A stretch of 64,000 nucleotides of DNA from Stenotrophomonas maltophilia. GTDB taxonomy: Bacteria; Pseudomonadota; Gammaproteobacteria; Xanthomonadales; Xanthomonadaceae. A program made the translations under genes and the position numbers. Under the pieces are notes generated by a model. It saw only the letters and a list, made by a program, of their open reading frames with translations. It did no database searches and had not been told where the DNA came from. The stretch is from positions 186,001 to 250,000 of the forward strand of contig NZ_QFHO01000003.1 of assembly GCF_004920835.1 (NCBI RefSeq), written 5' to 3'. This document shows positions 6,819 to 44,585 of the stretch, one piece after another. The number at the start of each line of letters is the position of its first letter. Position 1 is the first letter of the stretch.

Positions 6819-6825
6819 TGGGGGC

Positions 6826-7296: not shown

Positions 7297-7297
7297 G

Positions 7298-8654: not shown

Positions 8655-8655
8655 C

Positions 8656-14423: not shown

Positions 14424-14457
14424 GAGGCTAGATTCACTACCATCGCGCACGACCCGA

Positions 14458-14482: not shown

Positions 14483-14498
14483 CATTTCCGGACCCGCC

Positions 14499-15164
14499 AT
14501 GATCCTGACCGCCTTGACAATCCAGCAGGCGGTCGGCTGCAGTGCCGCCGTCGCCGCCCAGTGGGCGCAGCCCCTGACCGACGCCTGCACGGCGTTCGGC
14601 ATCAGCACCCCGAAGCGAGTGGCAGCGTTCCTGGCGCAGGTCGGGCACGAGTCGGCGAGCCTGACCAGGACCGTCGAGAACCTGAACTATGGTGCGCAGG
14701 GCATGGCCGACACTTGGCCGAGCCGCTACGCCGTCGACCCCAAGGCCAAGCCGAGGAAGCCGAACGACCTAGCGCGCGCGCTGGAGCGGAAGCCGGTCGC
14801 GATCGGCAACAACGCGTATGCCAACCGGCTGGGCAATGGCTCGGAGGCGAGCGGCGATGGCTACCGTTACAGGGGCCGTGGTCCGATCCAGAACACTGGC
14901 CGCGCCAACTACGCGGCGATCCGTGATGCGCTTCGCGCCATGGGCATCAATGGCGTGCCTGACTTCGAGGCCCAGCCTGAAGCGCTGGAGCAGCCGAAGT
15001 GGGGTGCCTTGGCAGCAGCGACGTTCTGGGATTCTCGGAACCTCAACAGGCTGGCGGATGCCGGCCGATTCGACGAGATCACGGCCCGGGTGAACGGTGG
15101 CCAGGTTGGAGCGGCGGACCGGCGTTCGCGGTACTACCGCGCGCTGAAGGTGCTTGGGGCATGA
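14499..15164 (+). CDS. Endolysin, glycoside hydrolase family 19
   Basis: 221 residues. The GH19 (chitinase/lysozyme-like) core is clear: catalytic Glu in 'QVGHESASLTRTVENLNY', the 'GDGYRYRGRGPIQNTGRANY' loop, and 'ARVNGGQVGAADRRSRYY' at the end. It degrades host peptidoglycan for lysis. No signal peptide, so it needs the holin to reach the wall. First gene of the lysis cassette. Confidence 0.92.
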   Translation: MILTALTIQQAVGCSAAVAAQWAQPLTDACTAFGISTPKRVAAFLAQVGHESASLTRTVENLNYGAQGMADTWPSRYAVDPKAKPRKPNDLARALERKPVAIGNNAYANRLGNGSEASGDGYRYRGRGPIQNTGRANYAAIRDALRAMGINGVPDFEAQPEALEQPKWGALAAATFWDSRNLNRLADAGRFDEITARVNGGQVGAADRRSRYYRALKVLGA

Positions 15165-15478
15165 CGATGGAAGCCCAGCCGAGCCAGGACGGCCGCACCA
15201 AGATCTCCCTGGGACCGGTGGAGCGCTGGATTGCACTGGTCATCGCCGGTGCCATCGTCAGCATCGGTTACTGGCTGGTGGGTTCAATGCAGTCTGTTCT
15301 AACCCAGCAGCAGGTAACGAACCAGCAGATCACCGGGCTGCAGCAGCAGCTGCAAATCATGAACACCCAGTTGGCGGACGTGCCGGCGCTGAAGCTGGAG
15401 TTGGCCAAGCAGGCCGTGCAGGTAGAGCAGAACAAGGCAGACATCCGCGAGCTGAAGCAGCTCAGGGGGCTGAAGTGA
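15161..15478 (+). CDS. Lysis-cassette membrane/coiled-coil protein
   Basis: 105 residues, ATGA overlap with the endolysin. One transmembrane helix (about residues 22-45, 'RWIALVIAGAIVSIGYWLVG') is followed by a long Gln-rich coiled coil ('QQVTNQQITGLQQQLQIM'). The topology suits a holin partner or antiholin. It is not the spanin, which follows separately. Confidence 0.72.
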   Translation: MTMEAQPSQDGRTKISLGPVERWIALVIAGAIVSIGYWLVGSMQSVLTQQQVTNQQITGLQQQLQIMNTQLADVPALKLELAKQAVQVEQNKADIRELKQLRGLK

Positions 15479-15750
15479 AGAACGTGAAACTCACCAGCGA
15501 CCGGCGCCATTTCTGGCGATTCTGGTCGGTTCGTCTGTCGCTGCTGGCCGGCATCATCAGCGCCACCGCGCTGGGCATCATCGGCGCCTATGTGCTGCTG
15601 CCTGCGGATTGGCTGCCGGTGGTGCACGACGGGTTCAAGCAGGCCGTGGCTTATTCCGCCCTGGCATCGGCCGGCGTCACCTCGTTCCTGGCTGCGGTGT
15701 CCCGCATCTTCGTGCAGCCCAAGCTGAGCAACGGCGATGCTGATCCCTGA
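15475..15750 (+). CDS. Probable holin
   Basis: 91 residues from GTG 15475 (GTGA overlap). Two hydrophobic helices ('LLAGIISATALGIIGAYVLL' and 'AYSALASAGVTSFLAAVSRIF') separated by a short loop, with charged ends: class II holin topology, like the small holin family common in Xanthomonadaceae phages. Its position between endolysin and spanins supports the assignment. Confidence 0.78.
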   Translation: MKNVKLTSDRRHFWRFWSVRLSLLAGIISATALGIIGAYVLLPADWLPVVHDGFKQAVAYSALASAGVTSFLAAVSRIFVQPKLSNGDADP

Positions 15751-16171
15751 CCCGCTGCGGCCCTACGTGGGCCTGATCCGCGTGGCGCTGTGGGTTGCCG
15801 CACTGGGCGCTGTCCTGCTGATGGGCGCCCGGCTCGGGTCGGACTACCGGGCCAAGAAGGACCAGGCCATGATCGCTTCCGCCGAGAGGCAGCGCGACAA
15901 GGCCCAGGCCGATGCCGACGAGAACCTGCGCGCAGCCAACGCCTGCGGCCAGCTGCTGCAGGAGGTCAACCGCCAGACCCAGCGAGCGATCGACGAGGCC
16001 ACCCGCCAGCAGCAGGCAGCCAAGGAGGCCGCACGCCTGGCCGAGGCTGCAGCAGCACAGAGCAAGCGCCGCGCCACCCAAGCCGAGCAGACCCTGCAGG
16101 CGGCCAAGAACCAGCCGGGTTGCCGGCAGCAGTTGGAGCAGACCCTATGCGACGCCATTCCGTTGCTGTGA
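15737..16171 (+). CDS. Rz-like inner-membrane spanin
   Basis: 144 residues: an N-terminal transmembrane anchor ('LIRVALWVAALGAVLLMG') followed by a long Ala/Gln-rich coiled coil in the periplasm and a Cys-containing end ('PGCRQQLEQTLC'). This is the i-spanin architecture. Its 3' end overlaps the Rz1-like gene by 25 bp. Confidence 0.85.
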   Translation: MLIPDPLRPYVGLIRVALWVAALGAVLLMGARLGSDYRAKKDQAMIASAERQRDKAQADADENLRAANACGQLLQEVNRQTQRAIDEATRQQQAAKEAARLAEAAAAQSKRRATQAEQTLQAAKNQPGCRQQLEQTLCDAIPLL

Positions 16172-16449
16172 TCGTGGCCACGGCCTTGCCGCTGTGCGGG
16201 TTCGGCAGCTGTAGCAAGGTCCAGAAGGCGGACATCCCGCAGACCGTGTACGTCACCGTCGAGCGCACCGTGGCTGTGCCGGCGGCGCTGACCGCCCGCT
16301 GCCCTGTGAAGCGCGCAACGCAACGCACCATCGAGAGCGTGGTGTCGGCCTACAACGCCAACGTGGCCAGCCTGGAGCAATGCAACGGGCAGCTGGGTGC
16401 CATCGAGAAGCTGGCGCCTGCCGGTGACCAGCAGCGGGTGAAGCCATGA
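16147..16449 (+). CDS. Rz1-like outer-membrane spanin lipoprotein
   Basis: 100 residues, starting inside the Rz-like gene in another frame. The signal sequence 'VAVIVATALPLCGFGSC' carries a lipobox-like Cys (C17 or C22), and the mature part begins with a short valine/proline-containing segment. It would bridge to Rz and fuse the membranes at the last step of lysis. Confidence 0.82.
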   Translation: MRRHSVAVIVATALPLCGFGSCSKVQKADIPQTVYVTVERTVAVPAALTARCPVKRATQRTIESVVSAYNANVASLEQCNGQLGAIEKLAPAGDQQRVKP

Positions 16450-16625
16450 GCATTCGGCCTTGGAATCCTGAGTCGGCCGCCCGGCTGATGCGTGTTGAAG
16501 AAAAACTGGACTCCCTCATCGATGCGCTGGCCGCCGAGGGTGAGGAAGAGCAGGACGAGCCGCTCCGCAGCCTGGACGGTGAGCTGGTGCCCGGTGAGCG
16601 CGACCAGTCGCAGAGCCTCGGCTGA
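16446..16625 (+). CDS. Small acidic phage protein
   Basis: 59 residues. ATGA overlap upstream and TGATG downstream. Acidic helical protein ('LMRVEEKLDSLIDALAAEGE'), a short coiled-coil candidate. Lies between spanins and the packaging region; function unknown. Small enough to be missed by default gene finders. Confidence 0.68.
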   Translation: MSIRPWNPESAARLMRVEEKLDSLIDALAAEGEEEQDEPLRSLDGELVPGERDQSQSLG

Positions 16626-16840
16626 TGGGCACGCGCGAGCACATTCACTGCCGAGACGATGGCCGAGGCCGGCGCAGGGTGCTGGTAGACGGTCAGGTTG
16701 TGGAGCAGGCGTTCTACGCGGATACCCGCAAGGGTGTGGTGCGCTACTACGTGAAGCCCCTGCGTGTGCACAAGCACGGCAAGCGAGCCATCAGCAGGAC
16801 CCTTCGCGGCAAGGTCGAAGTGGAGTTCCCTGATGGCTAG
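16625..16840 (+). CDS. Small basic phage protein
   Basis: 71 residues, beta-rich and basic ('GRRRVLVDGQVVEQAFYADT', 'VRYYVKPLRVHKHGKRAIS'). Such proteins commonly precede HNH genes in cos-type phages. Joined to neighbours by TGATG and an 8-bp overlap. Function unknown. Confidence 0.75.
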   Translation: MGTREHIHCRDDGRGRRRVLVDGQVVEQAFYADTRKGVVRYYVKPLRVHKHGKRAISRTLRGKVEVEFPDG

Positions 16841-17174
16841 GTTCCCAGGTCGCCACCGGCCGATGCCCCAGTTGGCGCCGGTGCATGTGGCTCAGTCCGC
16901 GCCTGAGAACTATGGCAAAGGACGCGGCGGTCGGCCCTGGCGTCGCAAGCGTGAGGCGGTGATGGCGCGAGACTTGTACCTGTGCCAGCCGTGTCGCGCC
17001 GCCGGTCGCATCCGTCAGGCGGAAGAGGTCGACCACGTTGTGCCGCAGGCAGAAGGCGGCACGGATGCGTTGGACAACCTGCAGGCGATCTGCTGCGAAT
17101 GCCACGGCACGAAGACCAAGGCAGAGGCAGCACGAGGCGCGAATCGTTCTCATCCATTCCTCTCGAAGCGATGA
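16833..17174 (+). CDS. HNH endonuclease of the packaging module
   Basis: 113 residues. ββα-metal HNH motif: 'CQPCRAAGRIRQAEEVDHVV', 'DALDNLQAICCECHGTKTKA', with paired cysteines holding zinc. In HK97-like phages the HNH protein next to the terminase stimulates specific cos cleavage by TerL. A GC-rich candidate cos region lies just downstream. Confidence 0.9.
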   Translation: MARFPGRHRPMPQLAPVHVAQSAPENYGKGRGGRPWRRKREAVMARDLYLCQPCRAAGRIRQAEEVDHVVPQAEGGTDALDNLQAICCECHGTKTKAEAARGANRSHPFLSKR

Positions 17175-17302
17175 ATGCGAGCGATTCGCATCGCATACCC
17201 CGGGGGGAGGGGAAAAAGTTCGAAGCGTTCCCCTCGGACACCGGCCGCTCAGTCGTTTTTTTGCACCGTCAATTCAGAAAATTCAGTTTTTGAGGCCTGT
17301 CT
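17175..17302. other. Candidate cos region between HNH and small terminase
   Basis: 128 bp without a gene. It holds an ATGCGA-N5-TCGCAT dyad (17175-17191), a CCCCGGGG palindrome (17198-17205) merging into a G-rich run to 17212, and T-rich and A-rich stretches before the terS start. HNH-cos-terS is the usual order in phages with P27-type small terminases. The exact nicking position cannot be read from sequence alone. Confidence 0.5.
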
Positions 17303-17728
17303 ATGTCCCGCCCCCGCAAGCCGACAGCGCTGAAGGTGGTGGCCGGCACAGACCGGCCGGACCGAGAAGCGCCAGCCGCGGCTGAACTCCCCCTGGTGTC
17401 CGACGTTCCACCGGCACCGGACTGGTTGCCCAACGCACACGCACACAAGGAATGGGAGCGACTTGCACCAATCCTCCATGCAAACAAGCTGCTGACCGAG
17501 GCCGGCCTGTCTGCACTCGGCCAGCTCTGCGCCCTCCATGGGAAGACTGTCCAGCTGTACGCCGCCGGCGAGGCACCGGTTGCATCGATGGTTGCCCAGC
17601 TGCGCGGGCTGATGAATGACTTTGGCCTGACGCCGGTGGCGCAGGGAAAGGTGAAACCGAATGGCGACACGGCAAAGCCGAGCAACGCGTTCGCCGCGCT
17701 CGGAAAGCCCCGCGCCGCCGGAAAATGA
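17303..17728 (+). CDS. terS: Terminase small subunit, P27 family
   Basis: 141 residues. The opening 'MSRPRKPTALKVVAGTDRPD' and the following 'PDWLPNAHAHKEWERLAPIL' helical block are diagnostic of P27-type TerS. It recognises the packaging site and recruits TerL. The C-terminus ('PSNAFAALG') fits the family. Its last 68 bp overlap the terL start in another frame. Confidence 0.92.
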   Translation: MSRPRKPTALKVVAGTDRPDREAPAAAELPLVSDVPPAPDWLPNAHAHKEWERLAPILHANKLLTEAGLSALGQLCALHGKTVQLYAAGEAPVASMVAQLRGLMNDFGLTPVAQGKVKPNGDTAKPSNAFAALGKPRAAGK

Positions 17729-19409
17729 CTACGTCGATGTCGCAATCGCGTATGCGAAGGCGGCTGCCGCAGATAGGGGAGGCAGGTTCGGCAGGCTGAT
17801 TAAGCTGGCTGCGAAGCGATTCCTGGACGATCTGAAGCGCGCCAAGAGGAAGGGGGCACCGTTCACTTTCTCGCGCGATCACGCCAATCACGCCTGCAGC
17901 TGGATCGAACTGCTCCCACACGTGGAGGGCAAGTGGGAGACGCCGGAAATCCGGCTTCACCCGTCCCACGTGTGGTTCGTGGTTCAGTTGTTCGGGTTCC
18001 GCAAGCCGGATGGAACACGCCGATTCACGTCTGCACTGTTTGCAGTCGCGCGCAAGAACGCGAAGTCGACGCTGTCGGCAGCCATCCTGCTGTACTGCGA
18101 GTGCTGTGAGGAGGAAGAGGGCGCTCAGGTCATTTCGGCAGCTACCACTGGCAGCCAGGCGCGGATCATCTTCAACGTGGCCAAGCGAATGGCCGAGAAG
18201 AAGGCGGACCTACGGGAAGCCTACGGGCTTGAGTGCTGGGCCAATGCGATCAGTCGCGTCGAGACCGGTGCGACGTTCAAGCCGATCAACGCCAAGGCGT
18301 CGACGCAGGACGGCCTGAATCCGTCCCACGTTGGTCTCGACGAGATCCACGCGCACAAGACGCCCGATCTGCTGAACGTCTTGCAGTCGGCGGCCGGCGC
18401 GCGCCGGAATCCTCTCTGGTTGTTCACGACCACAGAGGGTTACGCGAACCCCGGTCCATGGTCGGAAATACGGCAGTTCGCCACACAGTTGTTGGAGGGC
18501 GTGTTCGGCGACGCCGCCGATCACTTCCTGGCCATCTTCTTCGCGGTGGACAAGGACGACCGCGACTTTGACGAGAAGGCTTGGCACAAGGCCAATCCGT
18601 TGATGGACGTGAACCCCCATCTGCTGGCGGCGATCAGGAAGGAGTCGATCGAAGCCAAGGCGATGCCTTCGAAGCTCGCCGAGTTCCAGATCAAGCGGCT
18701 GAACCGTCCAGCTGCGGCAGCGAATGGCTTCATCCTGCTGCCGAAGTGGAACGCATGCCACGGCGTGGTCGATCTGGACGCGCTGAAGGACGTTCCCTGC
18801 TGGGGTGGGCTTGACTTGGCCAGCACGCGCGACCTTGCATCGCTGCGGTTGGTCTGGCGCTTGGACGACAAGATCATCACTTGGGGCCGCCGCTGGGTGC
18901 CTGAGTCGGCAGTGGCGCAGCGCACCGAGCGCGGCACTGTCCCGTATGCGGGCTGGGTCGCGGCCGGGTTGCTGGAGCAGACCGGGGGCGAGGTCACCGA
19001 CTACGCGGTGATAGAGCAGGCGGTTCTGGACGTGCACGAGCGCTTCAACCTGCAGTCGCTTGCGTTCGATCGCTGGAATGCGACTGAGATGGTCAGCCGG
19101 CTGGTAACTGCAGAGGTTCCGCTGGTTGAGTTCATCCAGGGCACGAAGTCCTACCACCCGGCAATGGTGGAGCTGGAGCGCGCCTATATCGCCAAGCGGT
19201 TGGTGCACGACGGTGACCCTGTGCTGGCCTGGTGCGCGGCCAACTTGGTCGCTCGCAAAGACGTGAACTTGAACATGGCGCCGGACAAGCGCCGGTCCGC
19301 GGACAAGATCGATGACATGACCGCGTTGCTGATGGCCCTCGGTGTGAGTCTTACCACCAGCACTGAGCAGCCGATTGACGATTTCCTAAATAGCCCGGTG
19401 ATCGGATGA
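17661..19409 (+). CDS. terL: Terminase large subunit
   Basis: 582 residues. The ATPase has an adenine/Walker A-like 'VARKNAKSTLSAAILLY' near residue 125 and Walker B 'VGLDEIHAH' near 225. The C-terminal nuclease region includes 'GGLDLASTRDLASL', with the first catalytic Asp, and 'NLNMAPDKRRSADKIDDMTA'. It cuts and translocates the concatemer into proheads. Standard length for HK97-type TerL. The start could lie slightly downstream, since the first 20 residues are basic and unconserved. Confidence 0.95.
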   Translation: MATRQSRATRSPRSESPAPPENDYVDVAIAYAKAAAADRGGRFGRLIKLAAKRFLDDLKRAKRKGAPFTFSRDHANHACSWIELLPHVEGKWETPEIRLHPSHVWFVVQLFGFRKPDGTRRFTSALFAVARKNAKSTLSAAILLYCECCEEEEGAQVISAATTGSQARIIFNVAKRMAEKKADLREAYGLECWANAISRVETGATFKPINAKASTQDGLNPSHVGLDEIHAHKTPDLLNVLQSAAGARRNPLWLFTTTEGYANPGPWSEIRQFATQLLEGVFGDAADHFLAIFFAVDKDDRDFDEKAWHKANPLMDVNPHLLAAIRKESIEAKAMPSKLAEFQIKRLNRPAAAANGFILLPKWNACHGVVDLDALKDVPCWGGLDLASTRDLASLRLVWRLDDKIITWGRRWVPESAVAQRTERGTVPYAGWVAAGLLEQTGGEVTDYAVIEQAVLDVHERFNLQSLAFDRWNATEMVSRLVTAEVPLVEFIQGTKSYHPAMVELERAYIAKRLVHDGDPVLAWCAANLVARKDVNLNMAPDKRRSADKIDDMTALLMALGVSLTTSTEQPIDDFLNSPVIG

Positions 19410-20695
19410 AAATGACGAAGAAGCCAGGGCGCCTGCGCGCTGCTGCGCTCAAGTGGCTCGGCGTTCCGATCCACCTCACTGATGGCGACTTCTGGGCTGA
19501 GTTCTTTGGATCGAGCTCGGCGGCCGGTGTGGCGGTGAATCATCAGACCGTGCTGAAGCTTTCGGCCGTATGGTCATGCGTTCGGCTGATCTCGGAGACT
19601 ATTTCGACGCTTCCGCTCTCGATGTACGAGAAGACGAGTAGCGGTAAGCGAGTGGCCAGCCAACACCCTCTGCAGTTCATCTTGCACGATCAGCCCAATG
19701 CAGACACGACCGCTGCTGTCCACTGGGAGGCGAGCGTGGCGGCCATGTTGCTGCGCGGTAACGCGCGCTGCGAAAAGCTGATGATTGGTGGCCGGTTGGT
19801 GGGCCTGCAGTTTCTGCATCCGGACCGGCTGACCTGGTTCCGGCGCGACGGGGTCAAAGTATGGAGGTACACCGACGAGAACGGCCGACAACGGGAGATC
19901 CCGAACGAACGCGTTTGGGGCATTCCGGGGTTCTCCCTGGACGGTAAGGAGGGCGTCTCAGTCATTGGCTACGGTGCAGAGGTATTCGGCGCCGCCATCG
20001 GCGCTGACATGGCGGCAAGCTCAACGTTCTCCAAGGGGTTGATGCCGACCACGGCCATTTCCTACCCGAGCACGCTTAAGCCCGAACAGCGAAAAGAGGC
20101 GAGGGAAACGCTGGAAACGCTGAGCGGGGCCGTGAATGCTGGGCGACCAGTCATTCTGGAAGCGGGGTCTGATATCAAGACGATTGGTATCAACCCGGCC
20201 GACGCCCAGCTGCTCGAATCACGTGCGTTCTCGGTAGAGGAGATCTGTCGCTGGTTCCGTGTTCCTCCGTTCATGGTTGGTCACGCCGAGAAGTCGACCA
20301 GTTGGGGCACCGGAATCGAGCAGCAGATGATCGGCTTTCTGACATTCACGCTTGGCCCTTGGCTCCGCCGGATTGAGCAGGCGATTAGCAAGGACCTTTT
20401 GACACCCTCAGAGCGCACCCGGTACTACCCGAAGTTCGCAGTCGAAGGGCTTCTGCGCTCCGACAGCGCTGGGCGCGCTTCCTTCTACGCGGCCATGGTC
20501 AACAACGGGATCCTGACGCGCGACGAAGTCCGCGAGTTGGAGGATCGTGAGCCGATGGGTGGCAATGCTGCGGTGCTGACGGTGCAGACCGCCTTGGCGC
20601 CGCTGGACAAGCTGGGGCAGGCCGAAGACGGCAACGCAGCACGCGCGTCGATGCGCGCCTTTCTTGGCGTCTCCGACGCCACCACCAAGGAGTAA
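19406..20695 (+). CDS. Portal protein, HK97 type
   Basis: 429 residues. 'VLKLSAVWSCVRLISETIST' near the N-terminus, the 'GNARCEKLMIGGRLVGLQFL' segment and 'FRVPPFMVGHAEKSTSWGTG' are signatures of the HK97-type portal. It forms the dodecameric DNA channel at the head vertex. ATGA overlap with terL. Confidence 0.95.
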   Translation: MKMTKKPGRLRAAALKWLGVPIHLTDGDFWAEFFGSSSAAGVAVNHQTVLKLSAVWSCVRLISETISTLPLSMYEKTSSGKRVASQHPLQFILHDQPNADTTAAVHWEASVAAMLLRGNARCEKLMIGGRLVGLQFLHPDRLTWFRRDGVKVWRYTDENGRQREIPNERVWGIPGFSLDGKEGVSVIGYGAEVFGAAIGADMAASSTFSKGLMPTTAISYPSTLKPEQRKEARETLETLSGAVNAGRPVILEAGSDIKTIGINPADAQLLESRAFSVEEICRWFRVPPFMVGHAEKSTSWGTGIEQQMIGFLTFTLGPWLRRIEQAISKDLLTPSERTRYYPKFAVEGLLRSDSAGRASFYAAMVNNGILTRDEVRELEDREPMGGNAAVLTVQTALAPLDKLGQAEDGNAARASMRAFLGVSDATTKE

Positions 20696-36119: not shown

Positions 36120-36412
36120 CGCAGGGTCTGCAGGTATGGGATCAGAATGGAGCGCTGGTGCTCGATGTCACCGATCGTCTGACCCGCCATGTCGTTTCAG
36201 GATCATACGTGGCGCCGGCCGGATCATGGCCAATCATCGCTTTCATCAGTGTTCCAGGGATGGTCAACGATGGAACTTGGCTCGCCGTAGCATCGTCGGG
36301 TCCAGGCGCTGGGAACCCTGTGACAATCATCAATGGCGGTTTCAACGTTCTGTGTAACGACGCCTTCGGCGGGGTCCGCAACACTAACTACTACTCGGTG
36401 TTTCGCATATGA
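36116..36412 (+). CDS. Small tail-tip protein after J
   Basis: 98 residues from GTG overlapping the J stop. It begins 'TQGLQVWDQNGALVLDVTDR', a motif shared with the next gene ('NAGLQVFNDDQILQIDSDYR'), and with phage fibre-tip proteins. Lower GC than J. Probably a receptor-binding accessory; ends 'NTNYYSVFRI'. Confidence 0.75.
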   Translation: MTQGLQVWDQNGALVLDVTDRLTRHVVSGSYVAPAGSWPIIAFISVPGMVNDGTWLAVASSGPGAGNPVTIINGGFNVLCNDAFGGVRNTNYYSVFRI

Positions 36413-37107
36413 ATGCAGGACTGCAGGTGTTCAATGACGATCAGATTCTGCAGATCGACAGTGACTATCGAAACCCGAGGTACGCGTTTGGTGGCTATTG
36501 CAACACCAAGGCCGTAGGCAGCAACAGCTACTTCGTGGATGTGGCGATGGATGCGACGACCAGCATCGCAACAGAGTGCCCAATGGTGATTATCAGACCG
36601 GAGTCTGCTGATCAGTACGTCGGGGGGTGCTTTGTCAACGCGCCCCATCCCGAGGTTGGCAGTTTCCCGGCAAGGCCAAACGGTGCGGTCCAGTTGTGGG
36701 GGCAGTGCCCGTTCGATTGGGCTGTGCTTTCAACACGTGTAGCGATCGGGTCAGGTGGGTCGCCATACGGATTGGACATCTTTGACGCGAGTGGCAACCT
36801 GGTATTTGCGTCTGCATACCGACAGTTGAGGATCACGCAAACGTTCGATGATCCAGACAGCCAGGGATGGCCTAAGACGTTCGCGCTCACGAAGGGTCAG
36901 AACAATCCGTGGATCTGGGCGAATCCGATGATCGGACTGGCTGGAGGCACCTGGGATGAGCAGTTTCCTGGCATCGTGGGACGCTTCAATTCCGCTCGCA
37001 ATCAGCTCACCGTCGCAGCACTCGATCTGGTGACGATGCAGCCGATCGTTGGTGGCGGTAACCCCTTCGCAGGCGTTCGCCGACTGTTTGGCACCGCGAG
37101 CTACTAA
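36409..37107 (+). CDS. Tail-tip or receptor-binding protein after J
   Basis: 232 residues, ATGA overlap. N-terminal 25 residues are homologous-looking to those of the previous gene, then a unique beta-rich body ('IASECPMV'-like strands, 'PYGLDIFDASGNLVFASAYR') and a C-terminal glycine-rich end. The pair looks like a duplicated attachment motif carrying different tips. It converges tail-to-tail with the minus gene, overlapping it by 4 bp. Confidence 0.75.
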   Translation: MNAGLQVFNDDQILQIDSDYRNPRYAFGGYCNTKAVGSNSYFVDVAMDATTSIATECPMVIIRPESADQYVGGCFVNAPHPEVGSFPARPNGAVQLWGQCPFDWAVLSTRVAIGSGGSPYGLDIFDASGNLVFASAYRQLRITQTFDDPDSQGWPKTFALTKGQNNPWIWANPMIGLAGGTWDEQFPGIVGRFNSARNQLTVAALDLVTMQPIVGGGNPFAGVRRLFGTASY

Positions 37108-37409
37108 TGCGCGTGAGCTGGGGCTGTCTTCCTGTTTTTCAGGATTGAATGCGGAATGGAGACCTCTTCCGGCAGCTTCATGGTCAGCTGGATAATCATG
37201 TGGCTACCGGTCTTCCATCGGAAGCGTCGCGCGCGAACCTGGAAGGGGAGTTTTTCTCCGCCTACATCGAGATCGACGAGATCGCCTGTCCCGGGCGTGA
37301 GGCCGTCCACTGGCAATAGGCCAGGAAGCGACACTGGGATGCCCTGCAAGCGATCGATGGTGTCCTGGGTGAACAGCAGATCGAAGGTTACGTTGAGGGC
37401 TTCGCTCAT
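37104..37409 (-). CDS. Small protein convergent to the tail operon
   Basis: 101 residues on the minus strand with a TGGAG ribosome site. Beta-rich ('VTFDLLFTQDTIDRLQGIPV', 'DLVDLDVGGEKLPFQVRARR') with a basic tail. Probably co-transcribed with the SRAP gene upstream (57-bp gap). No family recognised. Confidence 0.7.
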   Translation of the reverse strand: MSEALNVTFDLLFTQDTIDRLQGIPVSLPGLLPVDGLTPGTGDLVDLDVGGEKLPFQVRARRFRWKTGSHMIIQLTMKLPEEVSIPHSILKNRKTAPAHAH

Positions 37410-37466
37410 GGCTCCATTCCGTGGGTGCGAGGTTCGGGAAGTCTAATCCAAGCGGGCCAGCTGCCG

Positions 37467-38132
37467 CTAAGCCACTGGCGCCAGCAGATCCTCGCGGTTG
37501 TTCCGCGGCGTGTTGACTGCGCGGCTGACGCGGTAGGCCTCCATCGCCGGCGTCTCGCTGGCCAGCAGCATCGCCATAGCGTCGTCCGGGCCCGCTGCCA
37601 TCCACTCATCGATCTGGCCGGCATGCAGCCACACCGGCATGCGGTCGTGGATATCGGCAGAGACGCCGCTGCTGTCGCCGGTGATGATGGTGAAGGTGCC
37701 CAGGTTGCCGTCGGGCAGCAGAGGGCTGGTGTCCTCCCACAGGCCGGCGGCCAGTAGCGGCCCGGTGGCGTGGATGAACCACGGGTCCTTCTTCTCATCG
37801 ATCGGGCTGACCGACCACTCGTAGTAGCCGGCCATGGGGATGACACACCGGCGTTTCTTGAACGCCGACCGGAAGGCGGGCTTTGTGGCCACCGTCTCTA
37901 TCCGGGCGTTGATGGTCGAGCCCTGTAGGCCCTTGGCCTTGGCCCAGAACGGCAGCAGGCCCCACGCAAGCCGGGTTACCTGCCGGCCTTCGCCGCGATC
38001 GAGGATCACGGATGCGCGCTGCGTCGGCGCCAGGTTGTAGCTGGGCTGGATCTCGGCCAGGCCGGGGGCAAGGTCAGCCAGCCCCGGCTGGCCGAAGTCG
38101 ATCACGGGGAGCTGGACGAAGCGGCCGCACAT
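37467..38132 (-). CDS. SRAP-family protein (YedK/HMCES-like), phage-borne
   Basis: 221 residues. Cys2 ('MCGRF') is the residue that cross-links to abasic sites after Met removal; 'STINARIETVATKPAF', 'RRCVIPMAGYYEWS' with its Glu, and 'DIHDRMPV' complete the active site. It protects abasic sites in single-stranded DNA. In a phage it may shield replicating DNA or counter base-excision attack. The window contains a second, longer SRAP gene at 42161. Confidence 0.92.
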   Translation of the reverse strand: MCGRFVQLPVIDFGQPGLADLAPGLAEIQPSYNLAPTQRASVILDRGEGRQVTRLAWGLLPFWAKAKGLQGSTINARIETVATKPAFRSAFKKRRCVIPMAGYYEWSVSPIDEKKDPWFIHATGPLLAAGLWEDTSPLLPDGNLGTFTIITGDSSGVSADIHDRMPVWLHAGQIDEWMAAGPDDAMAMLLASETPAMEAYRVSRAVNTPRNNREDLLAPVA

Positions 38133-38184
38133 ACGTGTAAGACTGCATCTCGGCTCGTGAGAACGCTGTCAGGTATGCTCATTT

Positions 38185-38214
38185 TTGACGGGGCATTGCT
38201 AGGCTAGGTTCTAT
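38185..38214 (+). promoter_or_regulatory. Promoter candidate for the two-gene accessory unit
   Basis: TTGACG (38185-38190), an 18-bp spacer and TTCTAT (38209-38214), in the 128-bp AT-richer gap between the divergent SRAP gene and the nucleotidyltransferase gene. The -10 is weak. It means the unit can be expressed independently of the phage late operon. Confidence 0.4.
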
Positions 38215-38260
38215 AGCTTAACGTTCAGGTTTGTTCGCACTCGACACCGGACGTCCCCAC

Positions 38261-38818
38261 ATGACTGTGCCTGAATGGAACTCGGCAGGTTTGCTCCCAC
38301 CTCACGATCCAGAGGCTCCTGTCTCCCGGGAAAGATCTCCGTATCTGGTGACCGTCGCGGACCTCGTTGCCAAGCTGTCTACAACGCCTCAGCGTTGCGT
38401 CATTGCCGACGGATTTCTCCGCTACAGAGCAGATCTTCACGCTTTAGGGTTCACCTCTGGTTTCCAATGGGTGGACGGTAGCTTCTGTTCCGATGTTGAA
38501 ACGTTGGAAGGCCGGCCGCCCAGCGATATAGATGTTGTTACGTTTCTCGACGCACCTGCGGACGTGGATCACGAAGCGGCCTTTGTAGCAAAGCCTCAGT
38601 TGTTTTTGGACCCGAAGAAAGAATATTTCTGCGACGCCTATTTTGTGGAGCTGAATGGCACTAGCCCTGAATATTTGGTTGCCAACTCTGCGTACTGGTC
38701 AAGTGTGTGGGGGCATACCAGGGGAGGTGCGTGGAAAGGCTTCTTGCAGGTGAGTCTTGATCCCGCATTTGATGCGGCCGCTAGGGGCATGCTGCAAATG
38801 GCTGAGGTGGCTCAGTGA
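38261..38818 (+). CDS. Predicted nucleotidyltransferase-fold protein (DUF6932-like)
   Basis: 185 residues from ATG 38261. It opens 'PEWNSAGLLPPHDPEAP', a conserved start in this uncharacterised family. The nucleotidyltransferase signature is complete: Gly73-Ser74 in 'WVDGSF', Asp89 and Asp91 in 'SDIDVVTF', and a third acidic residue Asp125 in 'YFCDAYFVEL'. So catalysis (nucleotide transfer to protein, RNA or a small molecule) is plausible. GC is visibly lower than in the phage. It is translationally coupled to the next gene by GTGA. The function of this family is not known to me. Confidence 0.82.
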   Translation: MTVPEWNSAGLLPPHDPEAPVSRERSPYLVTVADLVAKLSTTPQRCVIADGFLRYRADLHALGFTSGFQWVDGSFCSDVETLEGRPPSDIDVVTFLDAPADVDHEAAFVAKPQLFLDPKKEYFCDAYFVELNGTSPEYLVANSAYWSSVWGHTRGGAWKGFLQVSLDPAFDAAARGMLQMAEVAQ

Positions 38819-39732
38819 GAATCTTCGAAAAAAATTCGCTCAAGAGTGAAATTGCTGAGGTTTCGAGGTTGCTTCGGCTGGCTGGTCCGAATGACGTTTT
38901 TACGCGCATCGGATTAGAGCGCAGGCTAAGAGAGCTCACTGCTCAACAAGACGAGGATCCTGGTAATCATTTCCAGTCGCGTGTGACTTTTAAAGGTGCA
39001 CCAGTCGTTGGAAGTTATGGGATTTCGGCATCTTTTGGTGCTAAAGCTATGACGGCTTTCTCAGACGCCGTCTCTGCGGTCGGTGCATCCTTGCGTGGAG
39101 TTCTCGCTCCTCGAGGGCCACTCCCTGATCGGCCTGATTTCGAAATGTTGATCACAGGAACGGCTGTGGGGTCGTTTGGTTTCGAGCTTGAAAGTCGGAA
39201 TAGGGAGCTGGTGGAAGGTGGCACCGTTTCTGAGGCAGTGGAGCGAGCACAGCTTTTGCTTGAGGCTGCATCTCAAGAGGAAGACGATGCTCTCGCAGAA
39301 GCTCTTGTTGATCTTGATAGGCGTGCCATAGCGACCGTTCGTTCATTTGTCGAAGTCCTTCATCAGCATGGCGCTCTGTGCACAGTAGCTACTGCACATA
39401 GGACATTCAGCTTCTCTAACAACATGGAAGTTGTGCGTAGCGTGGCCCGGCTTGAGGACGGGAACATTGAAGAGGATGAGGAAATACTGGATGGGGTCCT
39501 GATCGGTGTTCTTCCCGTAACTAGGACGCTCGAGTTCCGCTTGCCGGATGCAGTGGTTATCCGAGGGAAGGTAGATAGATCCGTTGGAGATCTTGAAACT
39601 GTCTATGAGGCGTTGCACCAACGGTCCACGGTCCGCGTCCGAACGACAAGAGTCGGCAACGGAAGGCCTAAGTATTTGTTTGTTAGCAAGCCAGAAGCCT
39701 TAGGCAATGGGGATAACGTTCTGAACCCATAA
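38815..39732 (+). CDS. Partner protein of unknown function
   Basis: 305 residues from GTG 38815 overlapping the previous stop. The N-terminus is helical ('LKSEIAEVSRLLRLAG'). The centre has 'VTFKGAPVVGSYGISASFGA' and a hydrophobic 'LITGTAVGSFGFELESRNR'. An acidic helical part contains R176-x6-H183, and the C-terminal beta part includes 'LPVTRTLEFRLPDAVVIRGK' and 'STVRVRTTRVGNGRPKYLF'. No transmembrane segment. The overlap and shared low GC show the two genes moved together. No known domain assigned. Confidence 0.8.
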   Translation: MRIFEKNSLKSEIAEVSRLLRLAGPNDVFTRIGLERRLRELTAQQDEDPGNHFQSRVTFKGAPVVGSYGISASFGAKAMTAFSDAVSAVGASLRGVLAPRGPLPDRPDFEMLITGTAVGSFGFELESRNRELVEGGTVSEAVERAQLLLEAASQEEDDALAEALVDLDRRAIATVRSFVEVLHQHGALCTVATAHRTFSFSNNMEVVRSVARLEDGNIEEDEEILDGVLIGVLPVTRTLEFRLPDAVVIRGKVDRSVGDLETVYEALHQRSTVRVRTTRVGNGRPKYLFVSKPEALGNGDNVLNP

Positions 39733-39978
39733 ATTCCTCCGAGCAAAGGATCAACATCCAGCGGGTGCGATCTCGTGCACGGAGCTTGTGTAGTTCGGCA
39801 AGACCATGTGTTGCCGCATGCCCCACGCTGGCCGCAGCTGCCAACCTGATGCGCCAAGGCCGGCCGTGCCCGGGGTGTGTAGGGCACGGCCGAACTGTGA
39901 CGCCGGTCAGGCGGCCTCTACACGGTACTTGCGGTGTCGGATCTACGCTCGGTCTCCCCCAGGAGCCTGGAGAGAGCC
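39733..39978. other. 246-bp gap, likely near the right prophage boundary
   Basis: No gene. GC rises back to the host level. A hairpin with perfect 10-bp arms GGCCGTGCCC/GGGCACGGCC (39862-39871, 39882-39891) lacks a T-run. The ribosome site GGAGAGAG of the BLUF gene is at the end. The attachment core may lie here but cannot be identified without the left end. Confidence 0.4.
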
Positions 39979-40407
39979 ATGCCTAACAGGGCTGTTGTAT
40001 TTGTCAGTGAAGCGGTCGGCGACCTGACCTCGGCCCACCTGTCCAAGATCATGGCGGACGCAGAGCGATTCAATCGCACTGCCGGAGTAACCGGGGTCAC
40101 GCTGTTTGATGGACAGAGGTTCCTCGCTTACATGGAGGGGCCGCCCGATGGCCTGGATGTGGCCTTTTCCAGAGCAGCGGGCGCCACCAGCCATTCAAGC
40201 CTGATCGAGATTGCGCGGGGGCGGGTCGGGCAGCGCAGGCTTCCGTACTGGCCAATGCGTTGCATCCCCCTGTCGCCGCCGGAGCTGGTGCAGCTGGTGC
40301 GGGCCGACTGGACTTCCTTCCTGCAGCGGGGAGGCGATCAAGCTGGCCAAGCCACCGCGATGGAGATGCTGGTGGCACTGGTCGAACCATTCGCCGAGGC
40401 TGCCTGA
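39979..40407 (+). CDS. BLUF-domain protein lacking the photoactive Tyr and Gln
   Basis: 142 residues. The fold is clear: 'VVFVSEAVGDLTSAHLSKIM', 'AERFNRTAGVTGVTLFDGQR', 'FLAYMEGPPDGLD', about 95 residues plus a short helical tail. BLUF photochemistry needs a Tyr and a Gln. At the equivalent positions, with the same spacing as Tyr21/Asn45/Gln63 of AppA, this protein has Phe8, Asn32 and Ala50. It may bind flavin without responding to blue light, or serve as a plain interaction domain. Confidence 0.85.
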   Translation: MPNRAVVFVSEAVGDLTSAHLSKIMADAERFNRTAGVTGVTLFDGQRFLAYMEGPPDGLDVAFSRAAGATSHSSLIEIARGRVGQRRLPYWPMRCIPLSPPELVQLVRADWTSFLQRGGDQAGQATAMEMLVALVEPFAEAA

Positions 40408-40663
40408 GCAAGATCTTCGACAACAAGCGGCATCCGTTCTACGAGAACGAGGCCGCGTGGGGAGAACCCCGAACGACGGTGGGTGGTTGCCCGATAGTGC
40501 CCAGCCGCCGGCGCTGGCATTCTGACTGTACCGGATCCGGGGCCGCAGGCAGCTCAACCCGGGGGCGCTTGAGCAGCGCCGTGCCGGCACTCATCCCGAA
40601 CGATTCAGCCAGGTCGCCGCCGCGTTCGCAGGATCTGCGACGGCCGGTCGTATCCTTCCGGCC
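40408..40663. other. 256-bp stretch without a supported gene
   Basis: Reading frames exist on both strands but none has a credible start with a ribosome site or recognisable protein. It could include the remnant of a disrupted gene at the phage-host junction. No repeat or strong hairpin noticed. Confidence 0.3.
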
Positions 40664-41161
40664 ATGCTTCCCATGCACGGCTACCAAGGCTTCCGCAGCG
40701 CCCCCGTTCCCACTGGCTGGGTCCAGCTGGGTGACAACTGGGTGCTGTGGTGGAGCGGTCGGCAGATCGCCCAGGTTTCCCCAGCCAAGGACCGTGGGGT
40801 GCGTGTGCACCTCGATGCCCGGAAGATGTGGCAGACCAAGGACGAATGGGCAGCCAGTCTCGCCCAGGGCAAGCGCTATGCCGAGCGCTGGTGCGCGGTC
40901 AGGCTGTACCCAGAGCTGCGCCTTCGCGCCGCCGTGGCCCGGCTGCTGGGCACCAAGCCGGCCGAACCGCTGCCCGGCCTGCCACCGACCCGCGAGCAGC
41001 AGCAACAAGCCCGGCGCCTGGCTGAGGCCACGGCTACCGCTACGGCGCGGGTCAAGGAAGCGCTGGAGCCGGCCAAGCCGCCGGCGACAAAGCCCCGTCC
41101 GAAGGACGCGCGCAAGGCGTGGGTGAGGGCAGGGCTGCAGCAGATGCGCCGCGGTGTGTAA
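40664..41161 (+). CDS. Hypothetical host-type protein
   Basis: 165 residues (ATG 40664; ATG 40673 also possible, neither with a good ribosome site). Residues 10-90 ('GWVQLGDNWVLWWSGRQIAQ', 'RVHLDARKMWQTKDEWAASL') form a compact basic domain. The remainder is an Ala/Pro/Lys-rich helical tail. Resembles small uncharacterised Xanthomonadaceae proteins. Function unknown. Confidence 0.65.
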   Translation: MLPMHGYQGFRSAPVPTGWVQLGDNWVLWWSGRQIAQVSPAKDRGVRVHLDARKMWQTKDEWAASLAQGKRYAERWCAVRLYPELRLRAAVARLLGTKPAEPLPGLPPTREQQQQARRLAEATATATARVKEALEPAKPPATKPRPKDARKAWVRAGLQQMRRGV

Positions 41162-41249
41162 CGAGAGGGGGAGTTAAAAAAGGCGGAGCCGGAAGATTCA
41201 CGACTCCATTACGCCATTTTCTTGGAAACCCTTATGCCGCTAGGGTCTT

Positions 41250-41335
41250 TGGTGCCGGTGAAAGGACTCGAACCTTCATGGGGTCACCCCCGGCTGATTT
41301 TGAGTCAGCTGCGTATACCATTCCGCCACACCGGC
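41250..41335 (-). tRNA. tRNA-Leu(CAA)
   Basis: 86 nt including encoded CCA (41252-41250). Acceptor stem GCCGGTG/CACCGGC, a long variable arm as in class II tRNAs, and anticodon stem GCTGA/TCAGC enclosing CTCAAAA, so anticodon CAA. Its 3' end faces the prophage, making it a possible integration target. Confidence 0.95.
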
Positions 41336-41467
41336 AGGCAGCGTGCGAGTGTAACCGAGGTCGGCAGGGCTTTCATAGGGGGAGAGGCGATCAGGGCGCT
41401 TCCTGTCGGCTTCGACCCCATGGTGGCTATACTGCGGCGGCATGTATCCCTCCAGGAGCGGTAGCCG

Positions 41468-41848
41468 ATGACAGTGTTGCAGGACCTGAGGGTGCTGGTG
41501 GTCGAGAACGACGAGATGAGTGCCGCCTTGCTGCAGATGCAGCTGGTGCATGCCGGCGCGACCGTGGTCGGGTTGGCGGCGGGCGTGGCCGAAGCGCTGC
41601 GCCTGCTGGAGGATTCGGCGCCGGACGTGGCCCTGCTCGATTATCGCCTTGCCCGCAATGAAACCAGCGAGCCGGTCGCAGCTGCGCTGTCGGCGCGTGG
41701 CGTACCGTTCGTGCTGGCCACGGGGATGCTGGCCGAGCAGCTGCCTGAGTCCATGCTGGCTGGTGTGCTGCTGGTCAAGCCGTACCTGTCGGCGGATCTG
41801 AGCCGGGCGCTGGCGCGCGCGGTGGGTCGTTCCAGCGCGAAGGCCTGA
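41468..41848 (+). CDS. Stand-alone receiver-domain protein
   Basis: 126 residues, a single REC domain: acidic pocket in 'VVENDEM', phospho-acceptor in 'VALLDYRLA' (about Asp57), the Thr switch in 'FVLATGM' and Lys in 'LLVKPYL'. No output domain. A ribosome site GGAGCGG lies upstream. Such lone receivers act as phosphate shuttles or sinks of two-component systems; no kinase is nearby. Confidence 0.88.
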   Translation: MTVLQDLRVLVVENDEMSAALLQMQLVHAGATVVGLAAGVAEALRLLEDSAPDVALLDYRLARNETSEPVAAALSARGVPFVLATGMLAEQLPESMLAGVLLVKPYLSADLSRALARAVGRSSAKA

Positions 41849-41917
41849 TTGGTCCTGATGGAATCGGCGGGCGTATGCTGCCCGGGCCTGAATGCTCAGG
41901 CCTACAAGGAGAGTGGC

Positions 41918-42115
41918 ATGAAGAAGTGGATCAAGCGCGTGGTTGCTGCGGGTGTCCTTTCGATGGCTGTCTTCGGTGGTACGGCCTCTGCCGCGTGGTG
42001 CGGCCAGCCTTGTTACCAGCTCTACAAGAGCTGCATTGCGCGGGGTGGCGAGGTTGAGCAGTGCCTGCAGGAGCAAGCGTTCTGCGAAGAGGCGATGTGC
42101 GGCGGCAACCCCTGA
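41918..42115 (+). CDS. Small secreted cysteine-rich protein
   Basis: 65 residues behind AAGGAGAG. Signal peptide 'WIKRVVAAGVLSMAVFGGTASAA' type with an ASA-like cleavage site near residue 25. The mature 40 residues carry six Cys ('WCGQPCYQLYKSC', 'CLQEQAFCEEAMC'), enough for three disulfides in the periplasm. Function unknown. Confidence 0.78.
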   Translation: MKKWIKRVVAAGVLSMAVFGGTASAAWCGQPCYQLYKSCIARGGEVEQCLQEQAFCEEAMCGGNP

Positions 42116-42121
42116 TCCAGG

Positions 42122-42144
42122 AACCCCGCCCAGGCGGGGTTTTT
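42122..42144 (+). terminator. Intrinsic terminator
   Basis: GC-rich stem ACCCCGCC/GGCGGGGT (inside 42122-42141) with TTTTT behind it, just after the Cys-rich protein and tail-to-tail with the SRAP gene. Confidence 0.8.
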
Positions 42145-42160
42145 CATTCGCGCGCCATGT

Positions 42161-43117
42161 TCAACCTGCTTCCTCATACATGTAGCGGATGTCCTCGCGG
42201 TCATCGAGAATTCGGTACTGCCGCGCCAGGTCGTCCGGATCGGGATTGAGCCAGGCATCGAGGTATTCCTTGCGGATAGGTACCACGCCGCGATCATGAC
42301 CAGCCGCAGCAACGTCGCCGGGCGGTGTGTCGGTGATGGTGGCGAATGACAGCAGGCGGCCCTCCGGGCCCTCCCATTCCGCCCACAGGCAGGCCAGCAG
42401 CAGGTCGCGCGGTGGATCGGGACGAAACTCCAGCACCGCGTCCTGTTCCTTTTCGTCTGCGCCGAGCGTGCGTCCCGCGATGGCATGGCGGGGCACGTGC
42501 TCGTAGAACGCCTGCACCACCACCACGCCGTGGCGCAGGCCGAACGCACCACGCCAGTAGCCTTCCAGACTGTCGCGTCGTGCGTTGTAGGTGCCGGGAT
42601 AAAGCACGTCGTTGCGTGCGGGCTTGTCAGGAAGCCGGCACTGGTAGCGCATCGGCTTGATCACCCGCTCACCGTTCTCGCTGATCATCACCGGCGCATA
42701 GGTGCCAGGGAAAATCCGGTTATCGCGTGGCAGCAACTGCACCCGGTGCAGGTCTTCAAGCCGGGCTTGCGCGCGCTCGATGCGGTTGCCGGCCACGCGC
42801 AGGTCATTGCGTGCTTTCTGGGTAGGGCGGGTCGCCAGCGTGGCGTTGGCGATATCACGCCGCTCGCACTGGCGGGCCAGGTCCGCTTCCAGTTCGCGTT
42901 GCTCCTGCGCATGCCACTGCTGGATCTTCGCCACGATGTCGCGCCCCAGCTCGGTGCGTGCAGCAGCGAAGCCGTCATCCATCGCCTTGGGTGTCTTCGG
43001 TCGCTTCTTGCCCGGATCGTGCGCGTACAGCTCCGCGAAATCTTCCAGCGACAGGATGGCGCCGAACTCGCGCACCAGCTTGGCGTAGTCGGCGCGGATC
43101 AGGGCGGAATAGCACAT
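42161..43117 (-). CDS. SRAP-family protein, long form
   Basis: 318 residues. Cys2 ('MCYSAL'), 'GTYNARRDSLEGYWRGAFGL', Glu in 'QAFYEHVP' and His in 'AAGHDRGVVPI' are the SRAP active-site elements. Between the N-terminus and the core is an insertion of about 120 helical residues ('AAARTELGRDIVAKIQQWHA', 'LEADLARQCERRDIANATLA') absent from the phage copy, a coiled-coil candidate. It presumably forms DNA-protein crosslinks at abasic sites. Confidence 0.88.
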   Translation of the reverse strand: MCYSALIRADYAKLVREFGAILSLEDFAELYAHDPGKKRPKTPKAMDDGFAAARTELGRDIVAKIQQWHAQEQRELEADLARQCERRDIANATLATRPTQKARNDLRVAGNRIERAQARLEDLHRVQLLPRDNRIFPGTYAPVMISENGERVIKPMRYQCRLPDKPARNDVLYPGTYNARRDSLEGYWRGAFGLRHGVVVVQAFYEHVPRHAIAGRTLGADEKEQDAVLEFRPDPPRDLLLACLWAEWEGPEGRLLSFATITDTPPGDVAAAGHDRGVVPIRKEYLDAWLNPDPDDLARQYRILDDREDIRYMYEEAG

Positions 43118-43751: not shown

Positions 43752-43827
43752 TGGCGTCCCCACGGGGATTCGAACCCCGGTCGCCACCGTGAAAGGGTGA
43801 TGTCCTAGGCCTCTAGACGATGGGGAC
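43752..43827 (-). tRNA. tRNA-Glu(TTC), copy 1
   Basis: 76 nt with encoded CCA; acceptor GTCCCCA/TGGGGAC, anticodon loop CTTTCAC (anticodon TTC). Most distal gene of the minus-strand array. Confidence 0.96.
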
Positions 43828-43874
43828 GCACGAAAACTTCAAGTTGTAGATTCTTCGACGGCCTAATGTCGAAG

Positions 43875-43950
43875 TGGTGGAGCCAAGCGGGATCGAACCG
43901 CTGACCTCCTGCATGCCATGCAGGCGCTCTCCCAGCTGAGCTATGGCCCC
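43875..43950 (-). tRNA. tRNA-Ala(GGC), copy 1
   Basis: 76 nt with encoded CCA; acceptor begins GGGGCCA, anticodon stem CCTGC/GCAGG with loop ATGGCAT (anticodon GGC). Confidence 0.96.
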
Positions 43951-43993
43951 ATGAAACGTCGGAATTCTGCTGGGAGCAGAGTCCGTTTGAAAC

Positions 43994-44069
43994 TGGCGTC
44001 CCCACGGGGATTCGAACCCCGGTCGCCACCGTGAAAGGGTGATGTCCTAGGCCTCTAGACGATGGGGAC
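43994..44069 (-). tRNA. tRNA-Glu(TTC), copy 2
   Basis: Identical to the other Glu copies over its visible length, with the same downstream spacer ('CACGAAAA...TTCAAGTTGTAGA') as copy 1. Confidence 0.96.
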
Positions 44070-44118
44070 GCACGAAAAACTTCAAGTTGTAGAACCTTCG
44101 ACGGCCTAATGTCGAAAG

Positions 44119-44194
44119 TGGTGGAGCCAAGCGGGATCGAACCGCTGACCTCCTGCATGCCATGCAGGCGCTCTCCCAGCTGAGCTATGGCCCC
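44119..44194 (-). tRNA. tRNA-Ala(GGC), copy 2
   Basis: 76 nt, same sequence as copy 1. The promoter candidate at 44212 lies just upstream of this copy. Confidence 0.96.
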
Positions 44195-44211
44195 GTGTTA
44201 CCGAGCCGCCC

Positions 44212-44217
44212 ATCATA
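44212..44217 (-). promoter_or_regulatory. Promoter candidate inside the tRNA array
   Basis: -10 TATGAT on the minus strand 18 bp upstream of tRNA-Ala copy 2, followed by a GC-rich discriminator (GGGCGGC) as in stringently controlled stable-RNA promoters. The -35 is poor (TTCCAC at 17 bp). Confidence 0.45.
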
Positions 44218-44334
44218 CCTGCGTGTTCACATTTGTGGAAGCTTTTTTTTAAGCTTTTTTCGTTCCGGATCAACCGCAGCCATGAGGGCAGGGGAACCGC
44301 AACGCCACAACCTGAATGCCGGTGGGCGGTGAAC

Positions 44335-44361
44335 AAAAAAGACCCGGTTATCGGCCGGGTC
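44335..44361 (-). terminator. Terminator within the tRNA array
   Basis: GACCCGG/CCGGGTC stem (44341-44347, 44355-44361) followed on the minus strand by six U. It splits the array into a proximal pair (copies 3) and a distal group with its own promoter. Confidence 0.75.
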
Positions 44362-44379
44362 CTCGTTGTTCATGATGAG

Positions 44380-44455
44380 TGGCGTCCCCACGGGGATTCG
44401 AACCCCGGTCGCCACCGTGAAAGGGTGATGTCCTAGGCCTCTAGACGATGGGGAC
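44380..44455 (-). tRNA. tRNA-Glu(TTC), copy 3
   Basis: 76 nt with CCA, anticodon TTC. Second gene from the array's main promoter. Confidence 0.96.
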
Positions 44456-44509
44456 GCAATTCTCATCAATGTTCTTTAGCGACCTTTCGACGGCCTAATG
44501 CCGAAAGAT

Positions 44510-44585
44510 TGGTGGAGCCAAGCGGGATCGAACCGCTGACCTCCTGCATGCCATGCAGGCGCTCTCCCAGCTGAGCTATGGCCCC
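44510..44585 (-). tRNA. tRNA-Ala(GGC), copy 3
   Basis: 76 nt with CCA, anticodon GGC; first gene after the array's main promoter. Confidence 0.96.

Follow-up and report, generated by a model that had tools for sequence, protein, structure and literature searches.

A nucleotidyltransferase and its OB-fold partner in a Stenotrophomonas maltophilia prophage, a possible phage-defence module and apparent divergent sister of the candidate system PDC-M63

What might be the role of two overlapping genes of low GC content that follow the tail genes of a lambda-like prophage in Stenotrophomonas maltophilia? We addressed this question in a 64,000-nucleotide stretch of contig NZ_QFHO01000003.1, hereafter the window. 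Gene 1 (38261–38818; 185 residues, ATG start) and gene 2 (38815–39732; 305 residues, GTG start) are complete open reading frames on the plus strand and, as the initial annotation had described, overlap by the sequence GTGA (38815–38818, plus strand), which forms the stop of the first gene and the start of the second. This overlap would be expected to couple their translation, and overlap or near-abutment of the two genes is the rule among relatives. The lower GC content remarked on earlier was borne out, the pair having a GC fraction of 0.529 and the whole window one of 0.647; only 42 of 62,529 segments of 1,472 bp were as AT-rich as the pair, with start positions from 38129 to 38349. GC at third codon positions was 0.559 in gene 1 and 0.471 in gene 2, compared with 0.792 in the tape-measure gene and 0.801 in the terminase gene, and was lowish (0.665) also in a nearby tail gene (36409–37107).

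Matches to PHROGs families for terminase, portal, major head, tape measure and tail fibre J identified the lambda-like prophage, consistent with the location first proposed, and the head and tail set (terminase to tail fibre J) lies upstream of the pair. The further claim that the pair marks the right end of this prophage could not be substantiated: we found no direct repeats of at least 16 bp between positions 1–20000 and 36000–64000, and no integrase was identified within the 64-kb window. The partner encoded by gene 2 occurs once in the source genome. Directly before the pair lies a gene for an SOS-response-associated peptidase (SRAP; 37467–38132, minus strand), and directly after it a gene for a BLUF blue-light sensor (39934–40407); the BLUF stretch had no DNA match in relatives L002, L016, L018 and L006. 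SRAP genes recur near the pair: a second one is present in the window (42161–43117, minus strand), its homologue lies upstream of the pair in L016 (3864–4805, plus strand), and another is annotated upstream of the pair on a Bradyrhizobium plasmid (L008; 2733–3473, minus strand). The minus strand of the window also carries three tandem tRNA-Glu(TTC)/tRNA-Ala(GGC) repeats at 43752–44585.

The non-coding stretch upstream of gene 1 (38133–38260, plus strand) contains two short blocks, 38217–38226 and 38243–38251, that are identical in four relatives with diverged surroundings. These blocks are not an extension of gene 1, because in L006 and L018 the reading frame is disrupted by small gaps ahead of the ATG. 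They are probably expression signals, possibly an operator or a ribosome-binding signal. The promoter previously suggested for the pair was not recovered, as a sigma-70 scan of 38100–40000 returned no sites (0.8 expected from shuffles), though the conserved non-coding block does precede the ATG. No terminators were found in the same interval, and Rfam gave no match in 37000–42500 except a tRNA.

The product of gene 1 matches DUF6932 (PF22014) over model positions 1–141 of 142 (E = 3.4e-29; 102.5 bits against a gathering score of 27), which confirms the DUF6932-like frame suspected at the outset. It also belongs to phrog_9194 (E = 1.2e-29) and matches the PADLOC model PDC-M63A (PDLC04744; E = 1.2e-9). 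We aligned 47 nucleotidyltransferases (NTases), the window's own included, after dropping the truncated or split L072 copy and copies at least 90% alike. Active-site residues G73, S74, D89 and D91 were kept in all 47 sequences and D125, the third carboxylate, in 46, the remaining one having Glu; the complete NTase signature read from the single sequence is thus conserved beyond chance. H152 and W158-K159-G160 were likewise kept in 47/47 and R154 in 40/47, and 14 residues separate S74 from D89 (GS-x14-DxD).

Structure prediction for the NTase, proposed in the initial annotation as a check of its pocket, yielded a confident model of a single 185-residue domain (pLDDT 94.6) but only weak matches to solved NTases. 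The best Foldseek row was HI0073, an MNT protein (E = 0.011), followed at ranks 2 and 3 by unrelated dehydrogenases. Among the best 16 VIA rows, 15 were nucleotidyltransferases, several being the same protein and one being Tam41, which we take to belong to this class; their Z values were low (at most 5.3, where Z below 8 may reflect merely a common arrangement), as for AadA (Z 5.3, 4.2 Å over 111 residues). CCA-adding enzymes were also present among these weak matches. Because the structural Z values lie below 8, assignment to the pol-beta type draws mainly on the motif, and by its residues gene 1 is predicted to encode a catalytic pol-beta-type NTase. A PDB sequence search with the NTase profile returned nothing. 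For MenT and AbiEii, previously cited as precedents, the NTase had no Pfam or NCBIfam match and neither appeared among the structural matches listed, a result that excludes neither.

The partner protein belongs to phrog_18731 (E = 8.8e-63) and had no match in Pfam, NCBIfam or PADLOC, the last searched at E ≤ 10. Its predicted model (pLDDT 91.1) is composed of a helical hairpin (residues 3–45), an alpha/beta core (54–212) with an invariant G119-S120-x-G122 and a C-terminal OB fold (218–297). The OB fold resembles the SSB, RPA, IF1 and anticodon-binding type, and the rows for SilF, SSB, RPA and IF1 reached a best Z of 9.0 (2.4 Å over 70 residues). OB folds are common, so this match identifies a fold and no function. 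The PDB matches listed mostly concern the OB domain and barely cover the remainder of the protein; among these OB-dominated matches there was no row with a HEPN fold. Foldseek against the PDB gave a best E of 0.014, with none under 0.001, and a PDB sequence search returned weak unrelated rows alone (best E = 0.041). In a viral structure library, two matches fell under 0.001, namely a DUF6575 phage protein (E = 8.8e-12 over 287 columns, at a TM-score of merely 0.36) and a Leptospira phage protein (E = 8.1e-7). In the partner alignment, from which the truncated or split L020, L065 and L072 copies and those at least 90% alike were dropped, residues conserved in at least 85% of sequences consist largely of Gly, Phe and further small or hydrophobic ones, plus R37, T114, S120, R170, R237 and E240. 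We recognised no obvious catalytic set or enzyme signature in this sequence. The R-x6-H motif highlighted earlier proved not to be conserved: the sole R-x4..6-H of the partner is R176…H183, with the arginine present in 19/46 and the histidine in 4/46 aligned sequences.

The initial annotation had envisaged that the two families might not co-occur elsewhere; we found that they do. Scanning viral contigs with a profile of the NTase revealed 67 loci, each with the partner next door (67/67); the L065 partner is frameshifted, and that of L020 runs off the end of its contig. When two partner profiles, both built from the NTase-found viral loci plus the window, were used instead, 73 loci (L072 and L116–L187) were identified on 54 contigs counted by hand, with an NTase at 73/73. 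These two tests overlap strongly, since 51 of the 54 contigs were already known from the NTase scan and 3 had been missed by it. The partner was further present in 3 of 72,556 plasmid records, all three with the NTase, and in 10 of 398 genomes at the phylum level, with the NTase directly upstream in each. At the family level, 4 of 297 genomes matched the partner, three of which carry the pair; the fourth (G196, locus L012) was dropped as a chance match in a 767-residue frame (E = 7e-4, no NTase), as was L005, where the match spanned 33 residues (E = 3e-4) and no NTase was present. phrog_18731 was found in 3 of 101 near relatives. A tblastn search of both proteins against 50,697 phage records gave no match, though PHROGs has both families. 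Pairing of the NTase and the partner is therefore near-obligate, and the occurrence of the pair in prophages, three plasmids and chromosomes supports the earlier view of a mobile unit. On the Bradyrhizobium plasmid, a multiubiquitin/ThiF/DUF6527 cluster (L008, 6940–9772) adjoins the pair; this cluster resembles bacterial ubiquitin-like defence operons.

The few decayed copies point both ways. An open NTase frame stands beside a frameshifted partner in viral contig L065 and lacks an intact partner in genome L104, where a 69-residue open reading frame (E = 0.007) may be a remnant. Conversely, the draft genome G519 (77% complete; locus L089) has an open partner frame with merely the last 53 NTase residues recognisable. 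In G527, a TAG lies near the start of the NTase match. Across 45 loci, NTase and partner distances were correlated (Pearson 0.88, Spearman 0.73; 0 of 2000 permutations as high), a result that co-inheritance alone would likewise yield.

DUF6932 was found at 17 places in 16 of the 398 phylum genomes, and its partners fall into several classes. The window-type partner accounted for nine places, the window's own included, and PDC-M63B for three (L093, L107 and L108; best E = 1.5e-154, 8.9e-44 and 8.5e-61, respectively). At four places (L094, L098, L099 and L105) an XRE plus ImmA/IrrE-type protein lies downstream; L094 and L099 have both domains according to Pfam, the PADLOC matches of L105 cover mainly the HTH part, and L098 was classed by its likeness to L094. 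The remaining place, L104, has no intact partner. We rejected the N-terminal hairpin as a docking element common to all DUF6932 partners, as window-type and PDC-M63B N-termini, aligned together and compared with the XRE-ImmA N-termini, gave a probability of 1.0 on a scale of 0–100.

Profile–profile comparison of the window partner with PDC-M63B, the latter represented by three sequences, gave a probability of 97.4 (E = 9.2e-12) and was collinear over 285 columns. The two systems also share their organisation, with a DUF6932-type NTase first and a directly adjoining partner of about 305–310 residues second, whereas the NTase loop of the window (GS-x14-DxD) is longer than that of L093 and L107 (GS-x9-DxD). 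The PADLOC model of PDC-M63B itself missed the window partner, and among seven relatives' partners it gave no better than E = 0.017 for L066 and E = 0.041 for L077, with L019 matching PDC-M32A instead (E = 2.8e-4); the same model had no matches in 274 genomes of the class, which is uninformative. Based on the collinear homology of the partners, we regard the window pair as a divergent sister of PDC-M63AB and not a member by PADLOC's models; in sequence terms it appears to be a new divergent branch of this known candidate system. The initial statement that the pair has no assigned function therefore holds for its biochemistry but not entirely otherwise, since gene 1 matches PDC-M63A and a deletion of PDC-M63AB has been published; this deletion, the one found in the searched open-access literature and made in E. 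coli NILS69, changed nothing for any of 10 phages (PMC12409345). The same literature contained no paper on DUF6932 and one each on PDC-M63, DUF6575 and PD-T4-10.

The partner's core and OB fold also have relatives outside the NTase loci. A DUF6575 protein was found in 1 of 121 genomes of the order (L110), and its C-terminal half matches both regions; with plasmid relatives L112 and L113 included, the comparison with the partner gave a probability of 98.2 (E = 3.7e-14 over 230 columns). By these profiles, the alpha/beta core and OB fold of the partner appear to recur behind DUF6575 in all three proteins. PDC-M63B is likewise matched by L110 (E = 3.4e-14), whose N-terminal part weakly matches PD-T4-10_B (E = 1.9e-4). 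The gene upstream of L110 weakly matches PD-T4-10_A (E = 7.8e-5) and scored a probability of 0.3 against the NTase profile. No NTase was seen beside the DUF6575 protein at L110, and none is annotated at L112 or L113. We had considered Ser120 of the GS hairpin as a target of the NTase; this idea is unsupported, because GSFG is kept in 2 of the 3 DUF6575 proteins, which have no NTase seen nearby.

In a study of systems from an E. coli defence selection (PMC9519451), DUF6575 is among the domains found, PD-T4-10 and PD-lambda-2 each have a toxic second gene that the first neutralises, and defence by PD-T4-10 is of the abortive-infection type. The PD-T4-10_B model matched 1 of 229 genomes. The C-terminal half of PD-T4-10_B (L111), tried as a homologue of the partner, was not detectably related, so this precedent is indirect, through DUF6575 alone; the window itself has neither DUF6575 nor PD-T4-10_A. 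PD-lambda-2 is connected to DUF6932 through the XRE plus ImmA/IrrE-type partner class, which includes PD-Lambda-2_B matches (strong for L099, E = 1e-75; weak for L094, E = 2.2e-7). However, PD-lambda-2 has a HigB-like first gene and three components (PMC9519451), and the window partner has no XRE or ImmA/IrrE-type domain.

The pair further resembles HEPN/MNT (HepT/MntA, type VII toxin–antitoxin) in having a small single-domain pol-beta-type NTase that adjoins a partner, and HI0073 and MNT chains are among the weak structural matches of the NTase. The window NTase nevertheless has GS-x14-DxD instead of the GSX10DXD given in PMC7641770, and RX4HXY is absent from the partner. With R-x6-H not conserved and the MNT and HEPN signatures absent, we discarded a HEPN/MNT reading of the pair. 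In HepT/MntA, the NTase keeps its partner silent by transferring AMP to it (PMC7641770). Clover (CloA/CloB) is similarly a two-gene system in which a pol-beta-type NTase beside an effector acts as a restraint, by making p3diT that restrains the toxic effector (PMC12265719); its CloA is an HD-domain dGTPase, whereas the window partner has no Pfam match. These likenesses to reported systems support the resemblance to toxin–antitoxin and anti-phage modules suggested in the initial annotation.

Taking these observations together, we tentatively favour the possibility that the pair is a prophage-borne two-gene phage-defence module, of the superinfection-exclusion or abortive-infection kind, in which the NTase restrains the partner. 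As a single-domain enzyme without an acceptor-binding domain of its own, the NTase would act on or for the partner, and in a healthy lysogen it would keep the OB-fold protein silent, either by transferring NMP onto it, as MntA does on HepT, or by supplying it with a short nucleotide ligand of its own making, in the way CloB restrains CloA. Upon infection this restraint would be lifted, and the released partner would stop phage or host growth through its OB fold. We judge the NTase most likely to be the brake because it has this role in HepT/MntA and Clover and is here a single domain beside an OB-fold partner. A defence role is further favoured by active-site conservation, pairing seen from both sides, the distance correlation, placement near repressors (see below), the PDC-M63A match, the PDC-M63B homology and the recurrence of the core and OB fold in DUF6575 proteins. 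The negative result of the PDC-M63AB deletion with 10 phages in E. coli NILS69 (PMC12409345) argues against it, as does the window's own copy, which is not beside a repressor. Moreover, L089 keeps an open partner frame with an NTase remnant, which speaks against an unrestrained partner being lethal; the partner has no enzyme signature that would explain a killing activity, and the toxin-second gene order would be one borrowed by analogy from cousin systems.

The opposite division of labour, which we consider rather unlikely, would make the NTase the effector: upon infection it would append nucleotides to the end of an RNA, such as a tRNA in the manner of MenT, with the partner serving as sensor, substrate-delivering subunit or antitoxin. 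That only the NTase of the two has conserved catalytic residues, that CCA-adding enzymes are among its weak structural matches and that the C-terminal OB fold of the partner resembles SSB, RPA, IF1 and anticodon-binding folds would all suit such a role. On the other hand, the open NTase frames without an intact partner in L104 and L065 speak against a toxic NTase left unrestrained, the enzyme is a single domain of 185 residues, and it is the first gene that neutralises in PD-T4-10 and PD-lambda-2 (PMC9519451).

Genomic placement bears on a third reading. A CI-like repressor (family seeded from L021) was present in 24 of 45 non-redundant viral loci and lay upstream on the same strand in 22 of them, at a distance of roughly 1 kb or less in 20; the distances were calculated with the NTase gene taken as 560 bp long, and the counts cover pair-bearing loci alone. 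Repressor families also headed the neighbour counts, with Peptidase_S24 in 17 and HTH_3 in 22 of 116 proteins scanned out of 169. A position downstream of the repressor is that of rexAB in lambda, and this rexAB-like place fits expression of the pair in the lysogen. The window's copy instead follows the tail genes, like those of close relatives L016 and L018. The same 22 loci would equally suit a module that serves lysogeny or a host function instead of defence, tuning how the prophage is maintained or induced, or the RNA metabolism of the host, and the lack of a phage phenotype in the test of the related E. coli pair (PMC12409345) points in that direction too. We nonetheless regard such a module as quite unlikely, given that the pair also resides on three plasmids, in L008 beside the multiubiquitin/ThiF/DUF6527 cluster, and that its sister modules resemble reported defence systems. 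Least probable, and in our view very unlikely, is a selfish toxin–antitoxin module that stabilises the prophage with no anti-phage benefit: two overlapping genes on mobile DNA and an NTase fold weakly like MNT antitoxins would fit it, but HEPN/MNT signatures are absent, and L065, L089 and L104 each lack one intact mate, so neither loss is visibly lethal.

Returning to the tentative defence reading, with the NTase as brake, we also considered a broader, somewhat doubtful generalisation, that DUF6932 is a general "guard" NTase coupled to at least three kinds of partner (OB-fold, PDC-M63B and XRE-ImmA/IrrE-type), each of which it would silence by a nucleotide mark or ligand. The window version would then be a new branch with an OB-fold effector that shares its core with DUF6575 proteins. 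DUF6932 and phrog_18731 are now linked to PDC-M63B and DUF6575 proteins, and hence can be tested jointly. If the proposal is true, a prophage gene pair annotated as "hypothetical" could be counted among the small number of immune systems under NTase control, and a single enzyme family would be seen to govern partners of several kinds.
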